The notes under the pieces were generated by a model. It was not told where the DNA came from and searched no databases. It worked only from the letters and a program-made list of their open reading frames with translations. Position numbers and translations under genes: made by a program. A stretch of DNA of 64,000 nucleotides from Pseudopyrenochaeta lycopersici (lineage: Eukaryota > Ascomycota > Dothideomycetes > Pleosporales > Pseudopyrenochaetaceae), in contig NHZP01000004.1 in NCBI GenBank assembly GCA_003313425.1, forward strand, positions 930,001 to 994,000, written 5' to 3'. This document shows, piece after piece, positions 2,274-15,255 of the stretch (position 1 is the first letter of the stretch; every line of letters starts with the position of its first letter).

Positions 2274-5200
2274 CTACATTTTCCCATCGACCACTAGCAC
2301 AGGCACAATCAAACTCTGTGGAGCTTTGACCTGCATTTGCTGCAAACACCACTCTTCCATTTTGGCCACATCAATGAAACCTTCTTCAACGCAAGAGATC
2401 AGTTCTTTATCCCAGAGGGCTGCAGCAGCCGGCTCCAAAGCCCTTAGACTCCCCTTGATATAACCGAGATAAACATGCAGACTCTGCAATGTCTCAAGCA
2501 TCAGATAGCTGCCATCTAGCTGGCCATCTTTGAAAAACAGTGCCTCAGCCAGTACTTGTGCTCGTTGTTTTCCCCAATCCTTGTCATCCTCGTACTTCTT
2601 AGCCATGGGTTGAATACGGTCGTACATACGGGATCCAATGCTGTGCATGATGCGCAACCCACTTTGGATGTCGGGGTCACTATCCGATGTGGAGATTATG
2701 TCGTTAAATATGTTCAGGAGAAGTGAAGAACATTGTTCCAGTTCGCCCATCCAGCGCTCCAGTCCACGGCGTCGAGGATAATCCGAAAAAATATCCATTA
2801 CCTGAGGTTTCTTTGCAGCTTTGGTCTCAGCTGCATACTGTTGTGCTCTGGCATGAATCTTGACCTCACCATCGGTTGGTGGAAGTTTTGTGATCTTGAT
2901 GGCACCGCCCTTAAGTAAGGGCTGCTTGCTGATAGGGTCCCACCTCGCTGTCTCGTGTAAGTTCGTGGGCCAAGAAAGTATTTATGGTAACTAACCTGTA
3001 GTCAACTCGTTCGCTGCCCTAGCCTTCCCGTCTACAGTATCGAAATAGCCAAAATGGAAAGGAATAAAAGTATGTCCCTTGAGTGTGCCGCCTATCCGTA
3101 CAGCAAGCTGCACCTTGCCCCGTCTTGATTCAACAAGAACATCTTGCCCATTCTCTACACCAAGAGCCTTTGCATCTTCTTCTGATATCTCAATCTCTGG
3201 CTCTGGGCAAGCATTTTGCAGAGGCGTACGTCCGGTCTTGGTCCGGGTATGAAAATGGTGTACTCTGCGGCCCGTTGACAAGTAGAAAGGATACTCATCA
3301 TTTGGTTCTTCTGGCGATGGTATGTAATGACACGCCTTTAAGATAGCTCTTCCGGCCGGGTTCATCTTACTATATTTGTCTTTCCCATAGTACACACCGG
3401 TCTCAAGATCATGCCCAAAACTCTCGCAATACTCAATATCAGTAAAGAATTTCCCATCAGAGAACAGACGTTCCGTGCCGAAAGGGTTGTCTTCATTGCA
3501 TGGCCACTGAATACCAGAACCTCCGGTAAGTTTCTCATATGACATACCACTGTAGTCGCAGGGCCTGCCTTTGGAGAGCTGTTTCCAGGCTTCGAAGACT
3601 TCTTCAGAATTTGTCCAGGGCAATAAAACATTGCCGTCTTTATCCTTAAATTCCATGCGTTTACCATAATCAAGGAAGATTTCAAGGTCTGGTTTTGCCT
3701 CTCCTGGTGGCTCGATCGCTTTATGAGATATGTGTACTACAAAGATTTAAGTGTGAAGTCAACATATGCCTCAGGTGTGGTTCTTAGATAATCCACTTAC
3801 CTGTACGGTCAACATTAGTGAAACAACCCGTCTTCTCTCCCCACTGTGCGCCGGGCAAAACGACATCCGCAATAGCCGTCGTTTCCGTCGGATATATGTC
3901 TTGAGCTATGACAAACAGGTCATCCTTTGTCAAAAGCTCACGCACTCGGTCCAAGTTTGGAAGGCTGACCAATGGATTTGTGCCAGATATCCAGAGCATC
4001 TCGATAGTCCCTTTTGCGATGAAGCTGAGTATATTCTCGACATGTGTAGGCTCATTCCAATGAGGCACTCGAACGGGGTCAATATTCCAGATTCTAGCTA
4101 AATCTTTCATATGTGCTGGATTCAAGTGATTGCGAAAGCCAGGAAACTCTCCGTCGCAGCCTGCTTCGCGATTGTTTTGGGCGGTCGGTTGCCCATTCAT
4201 CTGGAAGATTCCACATCCAGGCTTGCCAATCAAACCACGCAGAAGGTTGATGTTGTTGATTTGACATGCAGCTGCAGTGGCCTGATTTGATTGATAGATT
4301 CCTTGCAGTGCTGTAGACAGAAGAGTCTTAGTTGTGCCTATTATCTCTGCCGCTTTGTACAGTTCTGCGACAGGAACTCCTGTTATTTTTTCAACGATGT
4401 TCGGTGTGAATTCCTTGACTGTTTCTCTGAGATTCTCCAATCCGACTGTATGTTCGTGAACCCACTCGTAATTAACCCAGTCATTCGCAAAAAGAAGATG
4501 TTGGATTCCATTAAACAAAGCCACGTTTGTTCCGATCTTTGGCTTCAGATGTACTGTCGCGAGTTTTGCTGTATCTGATAGTCTTGGGTCAATTACGATA
4601 ATTTTTGGAGGAGAGGATCCTGCCAATCGGTCCAAGATACGCGCCCACAATACCGTCTGGGTGGCTGCCATATTGTGGCCGCAAAGCATTATACAGTCAG
4701 TGTAGTCGATATCCTAAGTCTTCTTAGATTATACCTGACCATTATCAAAAGCGGCTAAGCCTACCGTGTATGATCCTGGTTGCCCATCGCTACCAAAAGA
4801 CTCTCGCATGGAGGCCGCTGCAGTCGCTGTGCATAGGCGAGTATTACCATCCCTCAGTAATGTCAGAAGTAACGTAATGTAGGACTTTTAAAAGGGAACG
4901 TACATGTGAAGTGTGTTGAGTCCAGCTTTACCGACCATAGCTAAGACGTAGTACTCTTCGAGGAAGAACTGCCCAGTAGTATAAAAAGCAATACCATGGC
5001 TAGTAAGCCTTTTGGTGACATATTTGGTTTTCTCAACAATTAAACTCATCGCTTCTTCCCATGTTGCGCGCTCGAGCTTGCCGTTGCGTCGAATTTGAGG
5101 GTATTTAAGGCGATCTTCGTGGCCGACAGCCTTCCAGCTGTGAAGGCCTTTGGGTCCGAGCCGCCCTTTATTGACTCTATCAGTCGCCCTGCCTCTGATA

Positions 5201-5421
5201 CCAACGATCTTTCCGTCTTTCACTCCTATATCAACACCACAACCATTAGAACACAACACACACGCGCTTTGTACCCACTTTTCCGGCTCTTCGTCATATG
5301 CATCATCCACCCGTACTGGCCATTCGTGTTTGTAAGGCGTGCGCGGTCCCCAAATATCTTCAATGGACTGACGTGATTGCACCTTGGGCGCTTCTCCAAT
5401 CTTGACTTTGGGCTTTACCAT
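2274..5421 (-). CDS. DMSO-reductase-family (bis-MGD) molybdopterin oxidoreductase, bacterial-type
   Basis: Exons at 5421-4904, 4852-4765, 4713-3801, 3736-2996 and 2947-2274 give 977 residues. The start is the first ATG after an in-frame upstream stop. Near the N-terminus Cys54, Cys57 and Cys61 (CVLCSNGC) form the 4Fe-4S motif, but the usual fourth Cys is Gly89 (GRLGPKG). Exons 1 and 2 join to give DGNTRLCTATA, whose Cys180 fits the Mo ligand of nitrate-reductase-like members. Later blocks (GHNMAATQTVLWARILDRL, QINNINLLRGLIGKPGCG, QMNGQPTAQNNREAGCDGEF, GEKTGCFTNVDRT) are the molybdopterin and dinucleotide-binding regions. The family reduces nitrate, oxidises formate or similar; the substrate here is unknown. 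About 200 C-terminal residues form a helix-rich extension. The family is not expected in eukaryotes, so horizontal transfer is inferred. No targeting peptide is obvious. It diverges from moeA with a 350-bp spacer. Confidence 0.88.
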
Positions 5422-5771
5422 GATGGCTTCCCGATCAAAATTCTGTGTTTCCCAAGTGCCGACAACATAGCCCAAATAGATTTGTGCATGGACGTGCTAG
5501 CATATTCGCGTTGTTGTACCTGACGTAATTATCCTGCAATTAATACTAGGTGGCTTTTAGTTCCGGGGCATGCGGTTGCAGCGTCCAATAACCTTCGATG
5601 TGTTGACAAAAGCGTGCAGTAGCAGGAAATACTTCACGTCCGCTCCAATGAAGAGAATTGTGGTAGCCCTGCAGGATTGATCGCCTTAGGTTATGATGAC
5701 TACCATGTAGCCTTTGTTTCTTTTGACATTTCCAAGGTTGCCAAAGTTGAGTCTGAGGTTGAAATCTCACA
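5422..5771. promoter_or_regulatory. Divergent promoter between the oxidoreductase and moeA
   Basis: This 350-bp spacer separates two start codons that face away from each other, so the two genes probably share control. One GATAA core (read on the minus strand, 5529-5533) could be a GATA-factor (AreA-type) site, but a single core is weak evidence. I see no clear TATA box or NirA-type site. Confidence 0.45.
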
Positions 5772-7170
5772 ATGACTGTCAGCTACCGAGAAGCGCTTGA
5801 AATTGTACAGGGAGTCGCAGAAAAACGTGCCAAAGAACGCGATGGCCAGATACAGATTGTGTCGTTGCCAGAGTCCCTGGGGCGCACCGCTGCGAAAGAT
5901 CATTTCAGTCCCATCTCGACCCCGCCATATGATACCTCAGCCATGGACGGATATGCCATCTCTTCAGAAGCTACTACAAATGCGTCTACCGAGACACCTA
6001 TTACATTCGTGGTCAAGGGAACCATTGCAGCAGGCGACCAGCCTATTGTACTTACTAATGAGCTTGATGACGGCGCCTTCCCTTGTGTCGAGATCATGAC
6101 AGGAGCGCAATTTCCGCACAGCATGTCAAGCACTCCTTTTGATGCGTGCGTCAAGATTGAGGATACGATGTCGCTTGGCTCATCTGTTTCAGAGGCCAAA
6201 TCGCAGAACCGTTTGGCAGTAACCCGCCCGCTGCCCTTGTACGCAAATCGGCGCTTTGCTGGAGGAGACATAAAGAAAGGAGACATCATTATCGCAAAAG
6301 GAGATGTTGTGTGTTCACGTCATGTAATGGCTCTGGCATCTGTTGGTATTGATAAACTCAGTGTACATCGAAAGCCTCGAGTTGCTGTGTGGTCGACAGG
6401 AAACGAGCTGAGTGAAGGACCAGACAGAATCCGTAGCGACGAGCAGATTTTGAACTCGAATGGGCCTTACTTGAGCGCAGTGTTGCGGGAAAATGGTGCA
6501 GATGTGGAATACAAAGGCATACTCAAGGACAATTCCCATAGTTTGCAGGCCGCATTGAGCTCATTTGCGACTAGTCCATGGGATCTAGGTAAGAGACCTT
6601 TGTCCGAACTGTATGTTAGACATACGCTGACTTGGTATGTTCATCTCCGTAGTAATTACCACAGGCGCAGTCTCGAAAGGAAAATTCGATTTTATGGCAC
6701 CAGCGTTAGAAGAACTACAGGCAGAGATTCATTTTCATGGCGTGGCCATCCGTCCCGGACATCCCGTTCTCTTCGCAACGACAGGTGGTGACTCTTGCGA
6801 CGTCCCGCTGTTTGGACTTCCAGGTAATCCAATCGCAACGGCTGCATGTTTTCGCTTCCTGGTTGTGCCTTTCCTGAAGCGTCTTCTGGGACAAATTTGC
6901 GATCGACCACAACAAGCAAAGCTGCTGTTACGAGATGGTAATCCAGATGCCATACTATCCTCGCCGCCACATTTGGACTGCTTTAGACATGGGTTTGTCA
7001 GAAGCGATAGCTGCGGGAATAAAGTCGCAGAACTAAGCAGGAACCAAAGCCCCGCTATCATCTCGCAATTTGCGGCGTCCAATTGCTGGGTCCACATTCC
7101 CAGAGCTCGAGCAGAGGAGCTAGGCGAAGCAGTGGTATACTGCTTTCCTCACACCCTTTTCCTGAATTGA
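5772..7170 (+). CDS. moeA: Stand-alone molybdopterin molybdenumtransferase (MoeA)
   Basis: Exons 5772-6588 and 6653-7170 with a 64-bp intron (gtaaga..gtag) give 444 residues. MoeA inserts molybdate into adenylylated molybdopterin to make Moco. Seen motifs are PPYDTSAMDGYA (residues 51-62), AAGDQP, STGNEL, NSNGPYL, the exon-joined DLVITTGAVSKGKFDF and GLPGNPIATAACFRF, all in the MoeA order. Length is close to bacterial MoeA (about 400). The MogA-like domain fused in eukaryotic gephyrin/CnxE-type proteins is absent, so this looks like an extra, bacterial-style copy rather than the fungal housekeeping enzyme. It lies between the oxidoreductase (divergent) and mobA (convergent, overlapping by 22 bp), which fits a job feeding Mo-cofactor to MobA. 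The Lys in GAVSKGKFD where MoeA often has GGVS-G--D is a mild divergence. Confidence 0.88.
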
Positions 7171-7808
7171 ACTTGTTCCATGTAGGTTTTAGCAACCTCC
7201 CACTCCTGCTTCGTATTTACGTTCAAGAGCCATTCTTCTCGGATCGGTTTAATAAGTTTGCCCCCGAGCTGCCCCACAGTGTAGGCCGGGCCAGTATAAT
7301 TTTGCATGACATTGTCCTTGAGGCTACAAAGGGAACGTGGGCTCCAAATTCCAAGCAGTGGCTCACTAAAACCATCCCGATTTTGAAAGCAGGTGACAGG
7401 CGCCTCGTAGCTCTCGATAAGCTGGTGCACCGCCGAAACTTGAAGGAGAGGATAGTCACAGGCGAGGACTAGCCATGTCGCTGACGAGTCGTAATGGTGC
7501 GCCGAAAGAAGGCCTGCGGCGGGGCCAATATCCTTTTCCGTATCGTCTAAAATCGTCTCTAGCTTGATTGAGGTTGAATTTGAATTACTTGGGAAGGACA
7601 ATGAAACTATTCCGTTACGCAAGGGCTCGTCGAGAATTGACCGATCAGCGACCGACAGGTAAACCTTTTCTATTCCTGGTAGAGCCTCGTGCAGGGTTTC
7701 TATAAGCCGAAAATAGAGCGGTCTGTCTGAAAGTGGAAGGAGATGTTTTGGAGATCCCATGCGTGAGGAACGCCCACCAGCTAGAATCAGGACTGATAAT
7801 GAAACCAT
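7149..7808 (-). CDS. mobA: Molybdenum cofactor guanylyltransferase (MobA)
   Basis: An intronless frame of 219 residues starts at ATG 7806-7808. MobA transfers GMP from GTP to Mo-molybdopterin, making the guanine dinucleotide cofactor (MGD) of DMSO-reductase-family enzymes. The N-terminus VLILAGGRSSRMGSPKHLL is the nucleotidyltransferase GTP-binding loop (LAGGxSxRMGxxK). Further motifs are DIGPAAGLLSA (GPLAG-like), VLACDYPLL (the metal-binding DxPL motif) and EPLLGIW. Length is near that of bacterial MobA (about 190-220). It is convergent with moeA and overlaps its last 22 bp, stop codons included. MobA is not known as a normal eukaryotic enzyme, so its presence beside a bis-MGD-type enzyme strongly supports a working MGD pathway. 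A MocA-type cytidylyltransferase is the main alternative, but the partner enzyme favours GMP. Confidence 0.85.
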   Translation of the reverse strand: MVSLSVLILAGGRSSRMGSPKHLLPLSDRPLYFRLIETLHEALPGIEKVYLSVADRSILDEPLRNGIVSLSFPSNSNSTSIKLETILDDTEKDIGPAAGLLSAHHYDSSATWLVLACDYPLLQVSAVHQLIESYEAPVTCFQNRDGFSEPLLGIWSPRSLCSLKDNVMQNYTGPAYTVGQLGGKLIKPIREEWLLNVNTKQEWEVAKTYMEQVQFRKRV

Positions 7809-8158: not shown

Positions 8159-10063
8159 TTACGGCCCGCTGTTGGCTGTCTCGTTGAAAACGCCGTCGTG
8201 ACCTCCCTCGCGGTCCAGTTTCGCCTTTTCCGCCTTCGCCTTTTGGATCTTCAAAGACATCTTCACCGGATGTACATCAGGAGTCTCAAACACGGAGTCA
8301 ATTTCTTCTAGACTGAGCTTGCTCGTCTCTGGGAATACGAAGTAGGATGCTAGGTTCATTAGCCATGTGATCTTTTCCATTTTGGGTCATAAAGACTGAA
8401 TCACTTACCGACCAACTGAAGACAATTGTACACAATGTACACACACCAGATCTTATAACCAATTTTACTAATCCCGATCGAGATACCGTACGCTTCGATA
8501 GCTCCACACGCGCCCTGAATGAGTCCATACAATCCCATACCTTTGGCACGAAGCGGCAGCGACAGGATTTCGACCGGATAAAGGTTATGCATTGTGGCGA
8601 TGAAAGTAGCGCTGATAATTTGAAACATAAACATCCACATAATGGTGAGGGCCTGTTATCGAATTAATATGCAGGTCCGTCAACGGGTAGTTGACGATAT
8701 TGTGACTTACAGAGCAGGCCTTGGATTCTGTCTTGCTGTATTGCCAGGAGGTGATCGTGGCCGCTGTCTGCATACAAATGATACCGATGAGGCCCGCGAA
8801 AATAAGCGTACGACGCTTCAATAAATCGACGAACCATCCACCGATTGCAGTAAAGATGAAGTATGTGGCAGTGAGTCCAAGCGAGATGCCAAGTTGTGGA
8901 ATGGTATCATTCACTCCGATTGTTTCTAACGCCGGCGTAAGGTAATAGGCTGGACTTCGTTATCTCCTGGACTTGATGGCAAAAATGGAGATGTGTCCGC
9001 TTCGAACAGAAAACACTTACAGACGATCCCGCCACCATTCCATGACTGGAAACACGAGTACAACACCAGAACTAACAGACGATATCGGACAACCTTCTGG
9101 AGAAAGACGGCGAAGTTCCACGATTGTCTAAACCCTGTTCTCGACGTCTCGAGTGATTCTTCGATCTGTGCTACTACGACATTCACAAGAGGGTCGGAAG
9201 TAGATGCGGACGTTGTCATATACTTGGCAATGACCTCCTTCGCCTGTTCTCGCTTGCCCTTCAAGATGAGATAACGGGGCGATTCGGGAGTCAAGAAGTA
9301 GATGAGTGAGCAGACAATAAGTGGGAAAAATGACTGTAAAAGTAGTGGGATACGCCACGACCAGTTGTTTGTCTCGGCCATAGTCGCAGTACCTATCATC
9401 CCTGCATTCATGGCCACACTGCCAATCTGGAAACAGGCACCGAAGAGACCAACAATGCGACCTCGAAGATGGACAGGAGCAACTTCGGCAATATATTGTG
9501 GTGAAGACATTAGAGCAGATCCGAAGCCCAGGAAAAAACGGCCAGCCATGAAGCAAGAAACATTCGGTGCAAGTCCTTGCATGATGGCAGCCGTGATGAC
9601 GAGAGCGTTTCCAAGAAAGTTGACCCCACGACGTCCGATCTTATCGTTCAATGCGAGGAATGGTGCGCCGCAAACCGTACCGATTCTCATCAATGCTGTG
9701 ATGTGTGCAAAGGTCTAAAAGTTCACAATCAGCATATCGCGCACATGCAGCCCGCACTGGAGGTCTACATACCGCGCCGCTTGTTTCAAAGCCAAAGTAG
9801 TTGTGCCAGGAGTCGTAGGAGTTAATGTTACCAATGACTGCCCAATCTACACCGTATCCTGCTTGGTTGCAGCCTTGGACGAACATGATCAAGCATAGCC
9901 TCCATCCAGTCTTGGTCCAGAATGTTGGCATTGCCTCTTTAGACATTTTGAGCAAATCATCTTCTGTGATACGCTGGACAACAACATCTTCTGTTTGAAG
10001 CGCGCCGGCTTTCTCATCCGTTATGTCATGGTGAAAAGATCTAATATTATCTTGCGGAGCCAT
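8159..10063 (-). CDS. MFS sugar transporter (sugar porter family, lactose-permease-like)
   Basis: Exons at 10063-9773, 9714-9021, 8949-8711, 8652-8409 and 8349-8159 give 552 residues with about 12 hydrophobic segments. Sugar-porter marks are GRRG after the second segment, PQYIAEVAPVHLRGRIVG in the first half, PESPRYL before the central loop and the closing FPETSKLSLEEID. The protein is plasma-membrane-bound and probably a proton symporter. It is divergent from the GH95 gene with a 401-bp spacer and next to a GH1 gene. Its cargo is therefore likely an oligosaccharide or glycoside that the two glycosidases then cut inside the cell. The sequence is intact and intron positions are typical. Substrate specificity cannot be read from sequence alone. 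Confidence 0.85.
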
Positions 10064-10464
10064 GGTGCAGATGCGCGTGTGCGACCAGTGGTGTGCGGCT
10101 CGATGCTCACGCTCCTGGTGATGTACGACACCGAGAGTCTGTACTCTGAGAAAGGTTTCAAGGATTTATCTATTTTACAATATTGCCAAAGCACAAAGAA
10201 TATCAAGCGACGTCTCGACGGACTTCATTGAAGTATATTACTGTCGCAGCCCATCATGAACCCATGTCCATCCTCATGGATTCAAATGCATGATGGCCAA
10301 TAGCCCAGAGGACGCGAGCATTCCGTGTTCGTGAATAGATTCGCGAAAAGCTGCAATACCTTTCACATGTGGTCGCCTTGTTGTTGCTGATCGATGTTTG
10401 GGCAAATATTCTTCCGTCCAACCATCCTAGTGCTCCGCTGTAACACGCGGCTCATACTAGAGAA
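10064..10464. promoter_or_regulatory. Divergent promoter between transporter and GH95 gene
   Basis: This 401-bp spacer lies between opposed start codons. The arrangement suggests co-induction of uptake and hydrolysis. I did not find a binding site I would defend. Confidence 0.4.
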
Positions 10465-12936
10465 ATGTATAAATCCTCCGTACAACGAAGTCCAGAGCAA
10501 CAATCAAGGTTCCTCTTCCCATTTAGCCCGCACATTTTGCCGGTGGTCAATCGCTTAAGAACCAATACGATCATTCCACCCTCATGCACTCCCATGTTAC
10601 GCTACGAGAACCCCGCTTCAAACTGGGACGGCTCGCTGCCGCTAGGTAACGGTCGACTGGGAGTGATGGTCGATGGAGGAGTTCATACAGAAACGCTACG
10701 CCTGAATGAAGAAAGTGTCTGGTACGGCGGCCCTCAACCTCCGAGGACTCCCTTCGGTGCCAAACATCACCTAAAGGAATTAAGGCAATCCATCCGTGCT
10801 GGGAAACATCGAGATGCCGAAGGCCTAGTCAGGAAACGCTTCCTGGCGACACCAAAAAGTGCGAGACACTACGAGCCGCTGGGCACTTGTACTATTAATT
10901 TCGAATACAGCAATAATCGATCCACTGATGGAGGCGGCAAGGATATCTTCCAAGATTACGAGAGAAGTCTAGACCTCACAAGAGCTGAGGCAGTGGTTCA
11001 GTACACTGTAAATGGGATTGGAGTGCGGAGAGAGATTATCGTCACCAATGCGGACAACGTAATCGCTATTTGTGTGACCGCGGACCGCGAGATCACCTTC
11101 ACCGTCAATCTAACGCGCATGAGTCACATTGACGGTGAAGTCAATGAATTTTTAGACTCTATAACGATCGTAGACGGTCGAATCGTTCTTCATGCTACGC
11201 CAGGCGGCAAAGATAGCAACAGCCTAAGCCTGGTTGCGGGAGCCCGAGTTGACGGGGATGGGGAAGTTCAGGTTGTTGGACGTGAACTTGAAGTGACAGC
11301 TAAAAAGGCCCTGATTGTTCTTGCTGCTCACACACAGTATCATCACTCAGACGTTCAGCAAGCCTCAATCGCAGATATTAGCACTGCTTTGGACCATACG
11401 ACGGAGGAGCTTTGGCAGCGACACATTGAAGACTGGACGAATATCTTCAACCGCATGAGCATTCAGCTATGGCCAGATGACAAGCGATTGCCTACTAACG
11501 ACCGTTTGGCCAACCATCGAGACCCGGGCCTTTCTTCTCTATACTTCTGTTATGCGCGCTATCTGCTTCTCTCCTGTAGCAGGTCTTACTTAAAGGCTCT
11601 CCCAGCAACGTTGCAGGGCATCTGGTCCCCAAGTTTCCAACCACCATGGGGCTCAAAGTATACCATCAACATCAACCTCCAGATGAACTACTGGCCTGCT
11701 CATGTATCAAATCTTTCGGAATGTGAACTTCCGCTCTTTGATCTACTGAAGCGTATGGCTGTCAATGGCGAGCGTACCGCTTCAGAAGTCTGGGGCTGTC
11801 GCGGATGGTGCGCCCACCATAACACTGATATATTTGCTGATACTGAGACACAGGATCGGTGGATGCCGGCGACTCTGTGGCCCTTGGGTGGAGCGTGGTT
11901 GTGCACACATATAGGAGAATATTTCTCTTTCACTGGTGACAAAGAATTTCTTCTGCGGATGGCTCCGGTACTTGAAGGTTGCGTCCGATTCCTTCTGGAC
12001 TTCCTCATCCTCGACTCGACTGGTCAATATTTTGTCACCAGCCCCTCGCTATCACCAGAAAACACTTTCAGGCATGGTGAAACCGGCGAAAGCGGGGTGT
12101 TCTGCGAGGGATCGACCATGGACATGGAGATAATACGGCAAGTATTTTCGCAATATCTTGTCGCTGTAGCGGAGCTCCAAGAAGGAGCCTTCAGCGCAAC
12201 AATAGTCGAAGAGGTTGAGGGTGCCTTAATCCGTCTACAACCCGTCATCGTAAGTCCTAGCACCGGGGGAATTCAAGAATGGGGCTTGAACGATTATGAA
12301 GAGACCGAACTTGGTCATCGACACCTTTCACACCTTTATGCTCTTCATCCAGGCAATTCAATAACGCCAGAAACAACACCAAAGCTTGCGGAAGCAGCAA
12401 CGCAAACATTATTACGCCGTATCAAACATGGTGGCGGGCACACAGGCTGGTCCAGAGCTTGGCTCATCAACCTATGGGCACGGCTGCGGCAGCCCGAACA
12501 ATGTGCACTTAACATTGAAGCGCTATTGAGGGACAGCACCTTACCAAACATGCTCGACACTCACCCACCTTTTCAGATTGATGGAAATTTTGGCGGCGCA
12601 GCTGGCATCATGGAGTGTGTGGTGCAGTCACATGAGATCCTCGCTAGGGACGGAATGTCTAACATTATAATCATTCGTTTGCTACCTTCATGTCCCGATA
12701 TTTGGCAGAAGGGAGAAGTGAGAGGGGCCAAGTGCCGCGGAGGCTTCGAGCTTGACTTCACGTGGGATAACGGACACATTTGTGAGCCTGTCACTGTCAA
12801 GTCGAGGTTTGCGAATAGCAGCTTGATTGTTTTCCATCACGTAGGTTCCGATGCAAAAGATTGTGGCACTCAGATATCGCTTCCAGAACGCAGTGGGGAG
12901 CTATTGGTCTATAGAGATGGTCTCCGCGATGCCTAA
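10465..12936 (+). CDS. GH95 alpha-L-fucosidase (possibly alpha-L-galactosidase)
   Basis: A single exon encodes 823 residues from the first ATG, or 780 if the internal ATG at 10594 (MLRYENPASNWDGSLPLGNG) is used; the latter matches the usual family start. GH95 enzymes remove alpha-1,2-linked L-fucose, or L-galactose, by inversion. Family marks in order are the N-terminal LPLGNGRLGVMV and ESVWYGGP, then TININLQMNYWPAHVSNLSE (catalytic Asn region), HHNTDIFADT, TSPSLSPEN with the likely acid Glu, GHRHLSHLYALHPG, GHTGWSRAW and QIDGNFGG with the helper Asp. The key residues appear present and the length is normal. No signal peptide is visible, so the enzyme is probably intracellular and acts on imported oligosaccharides. 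Natural substrates could be fucosylated xyloglucan pieces. Confidence 0.9.
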   Translation: MYKSSVQRSPEQQSRFLFPFSPHILPVVNRLRTNTIIPPSCTPMLRYENPASNWDGSLPLGNGRLGVMVDGGVHTETLRLNEESVWYGGPQPPRTPFGAKHHLKELRQSIRAGKHRDAEGLVRKRFLATPKSARHYEPLGTCTINFEYSNNRSTDGGGKDIFQDYERSLDLTRAEAVVQYTVNGIGVRREIIVTNADNVIAICVTADREITFTVNLTRMSHIDGEVNEFLDSITIVDGRIVLHATPGGKDSNSLSLVAGARVDGDGEVQVVGRELEVTAKKALIVLAAHTQYHHSDVQQASIADISTALDHTTEELWQRHIEDWTNIFNRMSIQLWPDDKRLPTNDRLANHRDPGLSSLYFCYARYLLLSCSRSYLKALPATLQGIWSPSFQPPWGSKYTININLQMNYWPAHVSNLSECELPLFDLLKRMAVNGERTASEVWGCRGWCAHHNTDIFADTETQDRWMPATLWPLGGAWLCTHIGEYFSFTGDKEFLLRMAPVLEGCVRFLLDFLILDSTGQYFVTSPSLSPENTFRHGETGESGVFCEGSTMDMEIIRQVFSQYLVAVAELQEGAFSATIVEEVEGALIRLQPVIVSPSTGGIQEWGLNDYEETELGHRHLSHLYALHPGNSITPETTPKLAEAATQTLLRRIKHGGGHTGWSRAWLINLWARLRQPEQCALNIEALLRDSTLPNMLDTHPPFQIDGNFGGAAGIMECVVQSHEILARDGMSNIIIIRLLPSCPDIWQKGEVRGAKCRGGFELDFTWDNGHICEPVTVKSRFANSSLIVFHHVGSDAKDCGTQISLPERSGELLVYRDGLRDA

Positions 12937-13671
12937 TTCCTCTAGGAGTTTCTTAAGCAACACTACATTCACCTGGATCTGGAATCGCCTCGCCGGTGCA
13001 CCGAGAGCATGGATATGGTCTGATGGAAAGTCCTGGAAAGTCGGAACGTAAACCCGACGTACCTTGATGTTACGCCGAGGCATTTTGCTCGAGTTCTGAT
13101 AATGCACGATGTACGTACATTCATGGCGGAGGCGGGGTACGAGAAGGATTGCGGGGAACCGCTCCTACCAGAAGATAGACGGGTAGGCAAGCGAGTGACC
13201 AATAATGAGCACAAATGATGATGTTGAGAATGCGAAGCTAGATCCATGGATCATCTAGGTCTACGTGGAAGTGAAAGACGAATACGTGCTACTGTGCAAA
13301 ACAACCACTGTTAGAGGCCGTAAGAAAGCTTGGGACAAGCAGATACTTAGCTATTCAACCGTTCTTTAATGAACAGTGATTTGAGGGGAGCATGTCATAA
13401 ACTAGAGGACAGTTTAGAATAGATCGCCATGAGCTCTTTACATCCTATAATCAACTTTTCCCATGCCCCGCGATGCTCAACTACTGGCTATATGCAAGTA
13501 GTCAAGAATTTCGGTATAGCAAGCACCGGTGTTGTGTGTTGCAGTTCCGCCAATGACAGAGCGCAACATTAAGAACCATGCAAATCTACACCAGCATTTG
13601 CTGTTGCAATCATATGGTATTGCCATGCAGTATCAACTTTAAGCTGTGCAGATCTCGATAAATTAAGCTCG
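12937..13671. other. Intergenic between GH95 and GH1 genes
   Basis: This 735-bp spacer contains the 3' flank of GH95 and the GH1 promoter. A short open stretch of about 64 codons on the plus strand (13026-13217) looks mildly coding but has no start context or partner, so I do not call it. Confidence 0.45.
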
Positions 13672-13776
13672 ATGCAGAAGAGTGGGCCTGGGTATTTCAT
13701 TCAAGTACTTCGCGTTGGCAGCCAGTCGATTCTACACTACATAGAAAAGCACCAGATTCACCGTCGCTGCCTCATA

Positions 13777-15255
13777 ATGACTTGGACTCATACCTTCGAA
13801 GCACCACCTGACGCGGACCTGAAAGGAGCTCTGAGGAAAGACTTTCATTGGGGATACGCAACCGCTGCTGCTCAGATTGAAGGAGCTTGGAATAAAGATG
13901 GCAAAGGCGAATCGATATGGGACAAGCTTTGTCACACACCCGGGAAGGTGAAAGATGGAAGTACGAATGAAGACTCAGCTCGCTCATATGACTTCTATAA
14001 AGATGATGTCGCCCTGATGAAAAGTTATGGGGTTAACTCATACCGATTTTCCCTTGCGTGGTCAAGAATCATTCCTCTCGGGGGTGTAGGTGATCCCGTC
14101 AATGAACGAGGAATTCAATTCTACAACAACCTGATCGATGAGCTACTTGCAAATGGCATAACACCGTTTGTCACTTTGTTCCATTGGGACACCCCACAGG
14201 CCCTTGAAGATCGCTATAATGGGATGTTGGATCAAGAGAAATACACGCCGGACTTTCTCCGTTATGCGCGAGTTTGCTTTGAGCGATTCGGCGACCGAGT
14301 CAAACATTGGATCACATATAATGAGCCAGGTGTATACACTCTCGCCGGTTATGCAGGTGGTGCTCACGCTCCTGGAAGATCGTCTTATCGCGACAGGAAC
14401 GAAGAGGGCGATTCATCGACCGAGCCTTTCATCGTCGCCCATACTGAGCTTGTATCCCACGCAAAAGCAGTCAAGATTTACAGAGAAGAATTCAAACCCA
14501 CGCAAAAAGGCGTTATCGGCATCACTCTTCACGGGAACTATTCAGAACCATGGGATGTCAATGATCCAGCTGATGTTGCAGCAGCTGAGCGTGCGCGTCA
14601 ATTCGAAATTGCATGGTTTGCGGATCCAGTATACGGCAGTGGTGATTACCCACAGTGCATGCGCGACCAGCTCGGTGATCGGCTGCCGCGGTTCTCTGAA
14701 GAGGAAAAGGCTCTTGTGAAAGGAAGTTCTGATTTTTACGGCATGAACACATACACAACGTTCTTTGTGAAACATCGAAATGTGCCGGCGGATATCAACG
14801 ACCACAAAGGCAACGTGGAGAAACTTGACAACAATTGTGAAGGCAAATCACGGGGTCCAGAGTCTGACACATACTGGTTGCGCACTGCCCCTGAAGGTTT
14901 CGGAAAGCTGCTGAAATGGGTATGGAATCGATATCACGTTCCGATATACATGACCGAAAATGGAACAACCGCGAAAGGGGAGACAGCACCGACAGACGAC
15001 GTTCTAAATGATACGTTTCGCATCGATTTCTACAACAGTTATTTACGCGAACTGACTCAGGCGGTCAAGGACGGAATAGACATTCGGTCGTACTTTGCCT
15101 GGACGTTCACGGACAACTGGGAGTGGGCGGCCGGGTATACTGACAGATTTGGTGTGACCTACATTGACTTCGACACACCCGAGAAGAAGAGGTATCCCAA
15201 AAGATCAGCGTACTTTCTTCGCGATTATTTTGAGCACTTAATTGCAAGGGAATAA
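13777..15255 (+). CDS. GH1 beta-glucosidase
   Basis: A single exon encodes 492 residues from ATG 13777. An in-frame ATG at 13672 would add 35 residues without family similarity. GH1 retaining enzymes split beta-glucosides or beta-galactosides. The N-terminus FHWGYATAAAQIEGAWNKDG is the GH1 signature. The acid/base Glu183 lies in TYNEP and the nucleophile Glu394 in YMTENG. FHWDTPQAL, FSLAWSRI and AWTFTDNWEWAAGY with RFGVTYID are also present. The usual length is about 470-490, so the gene is complete. No signal peptide is seen, which fits an intracellular enzyme. It follows the GH95 gene on the same strand, and with the transporter suggests sequential breakdown of an imported oligosaccharide. 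Confidence 0.93.
   Translation: MTWTHTFEAPPDADLKGALRKDFHWGYATAAAQIEGAWNKDGKGESIWDKLCHTPGKVKDGSTNEDSARSYDFYKDDVALMKSYGVNSYRFSLAWSRIIPLGGVGDPVNERGIQFYNNLIDELLANGITPFVTLFHWDTPQALEDRYNGMLDQEKYTPDFLRYARVCFERFGDRVKHWITYNEPGVYTLAGYAGGAHAPGRSSYRDRNEEGDSSTEPFIVAHTELVSHAKAVKIYREEFKPTQKGVIGITLHGNYSEPWDVNDPADVAAAERARQFEIAWFADPVYGSGDYPQCMRDQLGDRLPRFSEEEKALVKGSSDFYGMNTYTTFFVKHRNVPADINDHKGNVEKLDNNCEGKSRGPESDTYWLRTAPEGFGKLLKWVWNRYHVPIYMTENGTTAKGETAPTDDVLNDTFRIDFYNSYLRELTQAVKDGIDIRSYFAWTFTDNWEWAAGYTDRFGVTYIDFDTPEKKRYPKRSAYFLRDYFEHLIARE

Follow-up and report, generated by a model that had tools for sequence, protein, structure and literature searches.

A probable bis-MGD enzyme of bacterial origin encoded beside MobA-like and MoeA genes in the fungus Pseudopyrenochaeta lycopersici

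Enzymes of the dimethyl sulfoxide reductase (DMSOR) family are said to be exclusive to prokaryotes (PMC4633490), and the same is stated of the most diverse family of molybdenum and tungsten (Mo/W) enzymes (PMC10609526); a survey that includes 250 eukaryotes names the SO, XO and mARC families for eukaryotes (PMC6147048), and NarB is absent from the main text of a study on eukaryotic nitrate assimilation genes (PMC6400420). E. coli MobA is described as catalyzing both the formation of bis-Mo-molybdopterin (bis-Mo-MPT) and the addition of guanosine monophosphate (GMP; PMC9103625), so that gain of a single protein might in principle suffice for a eukaryote to make the bis-molybdopterin guanine dinucleotide (bis-MGD) cofactor. 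Here we describe a window of 64,000 nucleotides (bases 930001-994000 of contig C4, GenBank NHZP01000004.1) from the 62.7-Mb, 188-contig genome of the fungus Pseudopyrenochaeta lycopersici, in which positions 2274-7808 are filled by three genes, for an oxidoreductase (OX), a MoeA and a MobA-like guanylyltransferase, and which we think likely to hold a bis-MGD enzyme of bacterial origin with MobA and a second MoeA beside it.

The bacterial subfamily most like OX, an uncharacterized one labelled "nitrate reductase" in plasmid records, is found in Hymenobacter, Halomonas sp. KO116, Deinococcus and Rhodococcus, and also in Flavisolibacter. The fungal protein resembles its members in identity (50-61%), in the Mo-ligand context, in the Gly or Asp that fills the fourth cluster position and in the small ferritin-like subunit, but differs in that this subunit is fused (as it is in Halomonas), in its five exons, in its eukaryotic host and in the adjoining MobA and MoeA genes. 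With NasC/NasA/NarB and NapA it shares a core alignable as a whole to solved Nap (PDB 2jim) and a Cys ligand in RLC, but it falls below the curated cut-offs, has Gly instead of the fourth cluster Cys and carries an extra C-terminal domain. The MobA-like protein is similar to Bacteroidota-type MobA (PRK14500/PRK14490) in its motifs and its Pfam domain NTP_transf_3, PRK14500 being its best NCBIfam model, but it is ~30% identical, longer, not fused and below the curated cut-offs. MoeA has the MoeA_N and MoCF_biosynth domains of MoeA and the CnxE/gephyrin E domain but stands alone and has SAMDGYA, not the SIVDGYA of the host's own CnxE-type gene. Horizontal acquisition of a molybdopterin oxidoreductase gene by a eukaryote has been claimed in print for the shrimp Litopenaeus vannamei (mopB/mopS), with a table row giving 83.27 (probably % identity) to Polaribacter for mopB; in the accessible part of that report, mopB is not among the four intron-bearing transferred genes named and MobA is not mentioned (PMC3750580).

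The three genes and their parts lie in the window as follows.

5421-4904, 4852-4765, 4713-3801, 3736-2996 and 2947-2274, minus strand: OX gene, 977 amino acids in five exons (PF04879, PF00384 and PF01568; ~61% identical to bacterial orthologs; homology fixes the splice sites)
4853..4903, minus strand: OX intron 1, 51 nt, GT-AG
4714..4764, minus strand: OX intron 2, 51 nt, GT-AG
3737..3800, minus strand: OX intron 3, 64 nt, GT-AG
2948..2995, minus strand: OX intron 4, 48 nt, GT-AG
5239..5262, minus strand: Cys54, Cys57 and Cys61 of the OX iron-sulfur motif, from alignment with bacterial relatives
4831..4833, minus strand: OX Cys180, predicted Mo ligand (RLCTATAAAS), from the same alignment
2304..2762, minus strand: putative ferritin-like helical domain at the OX C terminus, residues 816-968 (alignment, hhalign, fold of the bacterial counterpart)
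5422..5771, no strand: upstream region common to the divergent OX and MoeA genes, 350 bp between start codons
5772..7170, plus strand: MoeA gene, exons 5772-6588 and 6653-7170, 444 amino acids, stand-alone, without a MogA domain
6589..6652, plus strand: MoeA intron, 64 nt, GT-AG, with CTGAC beginning 26 nt before its 3' end
7149..7808, minus strand: MobA-like guanylyltransferase gene, 219 amino acids, intronless

An earlier note on this DNA had described a DMSO-reductase-family enzyme, a stand-alone MoeA and a MobA as intact neighbors, divergent or overlapping, with four introns in the first gene and one in the second, and with fungal genes on the flanks, and in all these points it holds up. 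Pfam models match far above cut-off for OX (PF04879, 48.5 bits; PF00384, 196.2; PF01568, 86.6), for MoeA (PF03453, MoeA_N, 110; PF00994, MoCF_biosynth, 104; once each) and for MobA (PF12804, NTP_transf_3, 92.2). Retention of any single OX intron leads to a stop, at codon 178, 214, 512 or 755, and retention of the MoeA intron to a stop at codon 340; once the introns are removed, bacterial sequence is restored across all four OX junctions in the protein alignment. We take the five introns, on these grounds, to be spliced. The last 22 bp of MobA overlap the 3' end of MoeA, tail to tail, and this overlapping end, together with the shared divergent upstream region, would fit co-regulation of the trio.

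OX residues 14-777 are ~61% identical to proteins of Flavisolibacter and Ignavibacteria and 60% identical to one on a Hymenobacter plasmid. In the phylum to which Flavisolibacter belongs, 4 of 296 genomes, Flavisolibacter among them, have such an ortholog (58-61%), the next match there standing at 37%; in the class to which genome G040 belongs, 5 of 395 do. Of 28 stretches picked up when the species-genome collection was scanned with six short peptide patterns, 7 encode an OX relative. In a tree of 23 proteins (omitting L006, a fragment; L055, a duplicate; L103 and L104, which have no clean frame; and L111 and L112), fungal OX is nested in a bacterial subfamily with 10 bacterial proteins, with support of 98/94. 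The members of this clade come from Bacteroidota, Ignavibacteria, Halomonas, Deinococcus and Gloeothece, and three Actinomycetota and two Bacillota proteins fall outside it; the fungal end branch measures 0.78 versus 0.08-0.47 for the bacterial members. The phylogeny shows that OX was transferred horizontally from bacteria. The fungal protein retains 242 of the 257 columns that are invariant in 12 bacterial orthologs, whereas it has the majority residue at 238 of 503 variable columns, a difference that points to long selection for function.

The Fe4S4, Molybdopterin and Molydop_binding domains of OX are all present and in order, as expected of the DMSO reductase (MopB, Mo/W-bisPGD) superfamily, and Cys180 aligns with the Cys or selenocysteine of Nap and the formate dehydrogenases. 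The residue that follows is Thr181, as in the bacterial relatives aligned, and Met in Nap. A four-Cys [4Fe-4S] motif is lacking, which tells against our main reading: Cys54, Cys57 and Cys61 are kept and Gly89 occupies the fourth position. In all 10 bacterial OX relatives aligned this position is Gly or Asp, so the OX cluster, if any, would not be a plain four-Cys one; the motif is described as not universal in the superfamily (PMC10100899). As separate observations, the OX orthologs of Enteractinococcus (L004, 7986-10358) and of the Rhodococcus rhodochrous plasmid pNit (L013, 8016-10481) are without the first three Cys and retain the Mo-ligand Cys, and are apparently DMSOR-type enzymes without an iron-sulfur cluster; the Gloeothece PCC 7822 plasmid OX (L014, 8001-10309) is unannotated, was matched in two pieces and may be broken.

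The C terminus of OX (residues 816-968) matches an open reading frame (ORF) that is separate in most of the bacteria compared and lies directly downstream of OX there, with 24% identity to the one in L007. Compared by hhalign with nine bacterial small ORFs, the fungal domain gives a probability of 96.6% (E 6e-10); two further small-subunit ORFs exist besides these nine. The Flavisolibacter small ORF, folded with two relatives, yields four long helices at a predicted local distance difference test (pLDDT) score of 83, and in the PDB it comes closest to bacterioferritins and YciE (one match with E 9e-4, the others weaker; TM ~0.65-0.8). We read the OX C terminus, on this modeling, as a ferritin-like accessory domain and a fused homologue of the separate bacterial small subunit; a role in maturation or docking would be a guess. 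The di-iron ligand pattern of an active ferritin was not seen in the aligned small-subunit sequences. The small subunit, of 135-162 amino acids, appears to form an unnamed ferritin-like four-helix family, with no Pfam match above cut-off in the five ORFs scanned (L007:10364-10822, L003:5801-6259, L010:11314-11772, L012:10511-10918 and L013:10481-10969). On the Halomonas sp. KO116 plasmid (L011:9004-11832), OX is naturally fused to this subunit, as in the fungus, and adjoins an HPP gene, with fdhD and fdhF close by. Two Bacillota loci have a 140-amino-acid ORF directly upstream of OX (L008:7536-7961 and L009:7507-7929), which may correspond to the small subunit; that of L008 has no Pfam match above cut-off.

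With respect to the cofactor genes, MobA alone in the fungal genome matches NTP_transf_3 strongly (91.8 bits genome-wide), and its motifs LAGGxSxRMG, GPAAG, CDYP, EPL and LNVNT are intact in the alignment; LAGG marks GTP specificity and LAAG CTP specificity. A second match to the same model (C20:98960-99265) reaches 29.3 bits, just above the cut-off of 27. Of 296 Bacteroidota genomes, 130 have a MobA relative at 1e-3 and 55 of those at 1e-8; none of 296 Actinomycetota genomes has one at 1e-8, in a search run without a positive control; among 72,556 plasmid records there are six matches, the best in Persicobacter (Bacteroidota). MoeA has the domain content of a bacterial-type MoeA, MoeA_N and MoCF_biosynth with MogA absent; the C-terminal domain model PF03454 was not among the matches in the Pfam scan. 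Its best matches are in Bacteroidota (31-38% among the best, up to 161 bits), gammaproteobacterial proteins follow close behind, and among solved structures the top scorers from archaea, from E. coli and from Cnx1 and gephyrin differ by no more than 25 bits. A CnxE-type gene with two domains, the host's own, lies on contig C21 and has SIVDGYA where the MoeA described here has SAMDGYA, as several bacterial MoeAs do. The two are 37% identical over one 102-residue stretch only, and a recent duplication of the host gene is ruled out by 29-32% identity over two exons of that gene and by the motif.

A fuller reading, which we hold tentatively and put a little short of an even chance, is that this is a eukaryote that makes and uses bis-MGD, by a dedicated MoeA-MobA branch off the ordinary molybdenum cofactor (Moco) pathway, and that has a fused-subunit bacterial nitrate reductase alongside two eukaryotic-type ones, possibly for nitrate use under low oxygen. 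In our main reading, which we think likely, the fungus gained from bacteria the gene of a probable bis-MGD oxidoreductase, cytosolic and similar to nitrate reductases, whose ferritin-like subunit is now fused. Molybdopterin would come from the host's ordinary Moco pathway; MoeA would insert Mo and hand Mo-MPT to MobA, which would join two Mo-MPT and add two GMP; and the resulting bis-MGD would enter OX, where Cys180 would bind Mo and an oxyanion, most likely nitrate, would be reduced. The second MoeA would keep this branch separate from host CnxE. Since MobA is the step that eukaryotes lack, its position beside its client OX would be explained. We infer that MobA supplies OX with bis-MGD and is fed by the second MoeA. 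To speak of a whole cofactor branch, as the earlier note did, is too strong, since the locus covers no more than MobA, for the bis-MGD step, and a second MoeA, and the host has a CnxE-type gene of its own.

The substrate of OX is, judging from comparison with its relatives, most likely an oxyanion, with nitrate favored. That OX is instead a formate dehydrogenase, or acts on some other substrate such as chlorate or another oxyanion, is in our view unlikely, and several results speak for it and detract from nitrate. Among NCBIfam models, formate dehydrogenase alpha (TIGR01591, 481.6 bits against a cut-off of 666.25) scores highest for OX, as it does for the Flavisolibacter (524) and Halomonas (491.7) proteins, each under the cut-off; the NasC model NF047855 comes second (409.7 against 1100), the Nas model NF041323 gives 350.2 against 1000, and the Flavisolibacter (458.9 and 389.6) and Halomonas (428 and 377.7) proteins stay below cut-off for both as well. 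With the fungal OX and its two bacterial relatives all below every cut-off listed, they would represent a subfamily without a curated model in NCBIfam. Against PDB chains, the N-terminal 339-residue piece of OX scores higher with formate dehydrogenase (181.9 bits) than with Nap (174.7), but the full-length protein has Nap (2jim) on top, at 374.5 versus 360.5 bits. The three formate-dehydrogenase-type chains shown have His after the (seleno)cysteine, in place of which OX has Thr181, and FdhD (PF02634), found in 8 of 14 control genomes, has no match in the fungal genome; for lack of the ligand-adjacent His and of an FdhD match, a formate dehydrogenase is disfavored. The FdhD gene near Halomonas OX is close to a separate fdhF gene.

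Bacterial neighbors bear on the same question. A SLAC1-family anion channel gene lies beside OX in five of five loci from the class of G040 (L056, L057, L058, L111 and L112), which suggests an anion-transport partnership; HPP genes lie near OX in Halomonas, Gloeothece and Deinococcus aetherius, the last of which also has a formate/nitrite transporter (FNT) gene nearby. Members of the SLAC1 and HPP families transport nitrate or nitrite, and such neighbors argue against a formate dehydrogenase, although the FNT kind also carries formate. On the other side of the balance, the annotated stretches from Hymenobacter, Rhodococcus, Deinococcus taeanensis and Streptomyces show no nitrate-type transporter next to OX, and two host ORFs combine Oxidored_molyb, Mo-co_dimer and Cyt-b5, which is the eukaryotic nitrate reductase layout up to the exon end, so that OX is not the sole nitrate reductase candidate. 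Two HPP-family genes are present elsewhere in the fungal genome (C24:328464-329012 and C9:160810-161354).

A further alternative, that only OX is a bis-MGD enzyme from bacteria and that the MobA-like and MoeA-like genes are of separate, older origin, have other roles (another nucleotidyltransferase or a CnxE helper, for example) and cluster with OX by chance or secondarily, seems to us distinctly improbable, and it draws on the observations that sit least well with a trio working as one. Divergence is unequal, with OX ~61% identical to its bacterial kin versus ~30-38% for MobA and MoeA. MobA is ~28-33% identical to its full-length matches and sits on a long branch of 2.33 changes per column, values that make a Bacteroidota-like source likely, not proven; it is below the NCBI cut-offs (TIGR02665, 58.9 versus 151.85; NF001457, 70.5 versus 164), and the three Bacteroidota MobAs that were scanned likewise fall short. 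The model built from the fungal MobA sequence alone is poor (pLDDT 54), with no PDB match at 0.001 and with other nucleotidyltransferases ranking before E. coli MobA (rank 34), and we rejected this structure as proof of identity, the model being too weak. In the MoeA tree, the fungal protein stands apart from the host CnxE-type gene and groups with no donor, with weak support and a branch of 2.49 changes per column.

Bacterial gene order adds to this side. We compared 20 bacterial OX loci of >44% identity (L003-L014, L056 with L085, L057, L058, L102-L104, L111 with L113 and L114, and L112; L055, from the same genome as L007, was dropped, and L104 is broken up). By tblastn at 1e-3 in flanks of ~1.3-9 kb, MoeA is near OX in 1 of the 20 (G040) and MobA in none, and both are absent from the wider flanks of the OX locus of G920; a bacterial OX-MoeA-MobA operon as donor was thus looked for in these 20 loci and not found. 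Only one of seven OX-bearing genomes has a MobA match at 1e-3 (Arthrobacter, weak, 1.8e-5), and Flavisolibacter is among the six without. Two findings on gene order favor our main reading. The order in G040 is OX, small subunit, MoeA, TauE, a MoaD-like ORF (identified by eye), MoeB, MoaE and MoaC/MoaB. In Bacteroidota, MoeA and MobA often adjoin, MoeA lying within 4 kb of MobA in 18 of the 32 best MobA matches; in 7 it does not, and 7 could not be judged, the MoeA position being not listed or not found.

Separate origin is opposed by the clear matches of MobA and MoeA to Moco families, by the intact MobA motifs, and by the divergent upstream region and overlapping end that the three genes have in common; moreover, MobA is not known to serve any other purpose in eukaryotes. 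We infer that the trio was acquired jointly, and put this no higher because MoeA is near OX in a single bacterial locus of those compared and MobA in none. The earlier note had the cofactor genes and their client gained together: its horizontal origin is borne out for OX, which falls among bacteria in the tree, and the joint gain is not, MobA and MoeA being much more diverged than OX from their bacterial kin.

It is highly unlikely that the three genes are non-functional passengers of a transfer, or unexpressed, as the two nitrate-reductase-type genes of the host might make one suppose, given three intact frames, gained introns, a G+C content at third codon positions (GC3) like that of the neighbors (0.47-0.51 for the trio versus 0.48-0.54 for nine other ORFs in the window), and a set of invariant columns kept at ~61% identity, which speaks for long selection. 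Bacterial contamination, which the earlier note had judged improbable, or a chimeric assembly, to either of which the bacterial best matches might point, has next to no chance and is rejected on the five GT-AG introns, the fungal composition (three bacterial OX genes measured have a GC3 of 0.56-0.62, above the fungal trio), the fungal genes in the same window, the only ~61% protein identity and the lack of any match in a near-mode nucleotide search of the plasmid collection with the locus.

The other genes of the window encode a fungal transcription-factor domain, a DUF2457 protein, a sugar transporter and GH95 and GH1 glycosidases. At ~8160-15252, beside the trio, the sugar transporter gene is followed by the GH95 and GH1 genes, ordinary-looking fungal surroundings for sugar use. 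Neither Rfam nor tRNA scanning gave a hit in the window.

In the open-licence literature, searched by titles and abstract starts, we found no report of a fungal MobA or of a fungal DMSOR-family enzyme; proteins of other fungi may carry automatic database labels as MobA-like, and we claim no priority. Fungal dissimilatory nitrate reductases are described as less well characterized than NirK and P450nor, and fungi as able to run assimilatory enzymes in dissimilatory mode (PMC4686598); any bearing of the locus on dissimilatory nitrate reduction in fungi is speculation. If our reading is true, a fungal bis-MGD-type enzyme with an adjacent MobA step would break the prokaryote-only rule for the DMSOR family, would show which steps suffice for adding a bis-MGD pathway to a eukaryotic cell, and would provide a natural eukaryotic system for studying the synthesis and insertion of bis-MGD.

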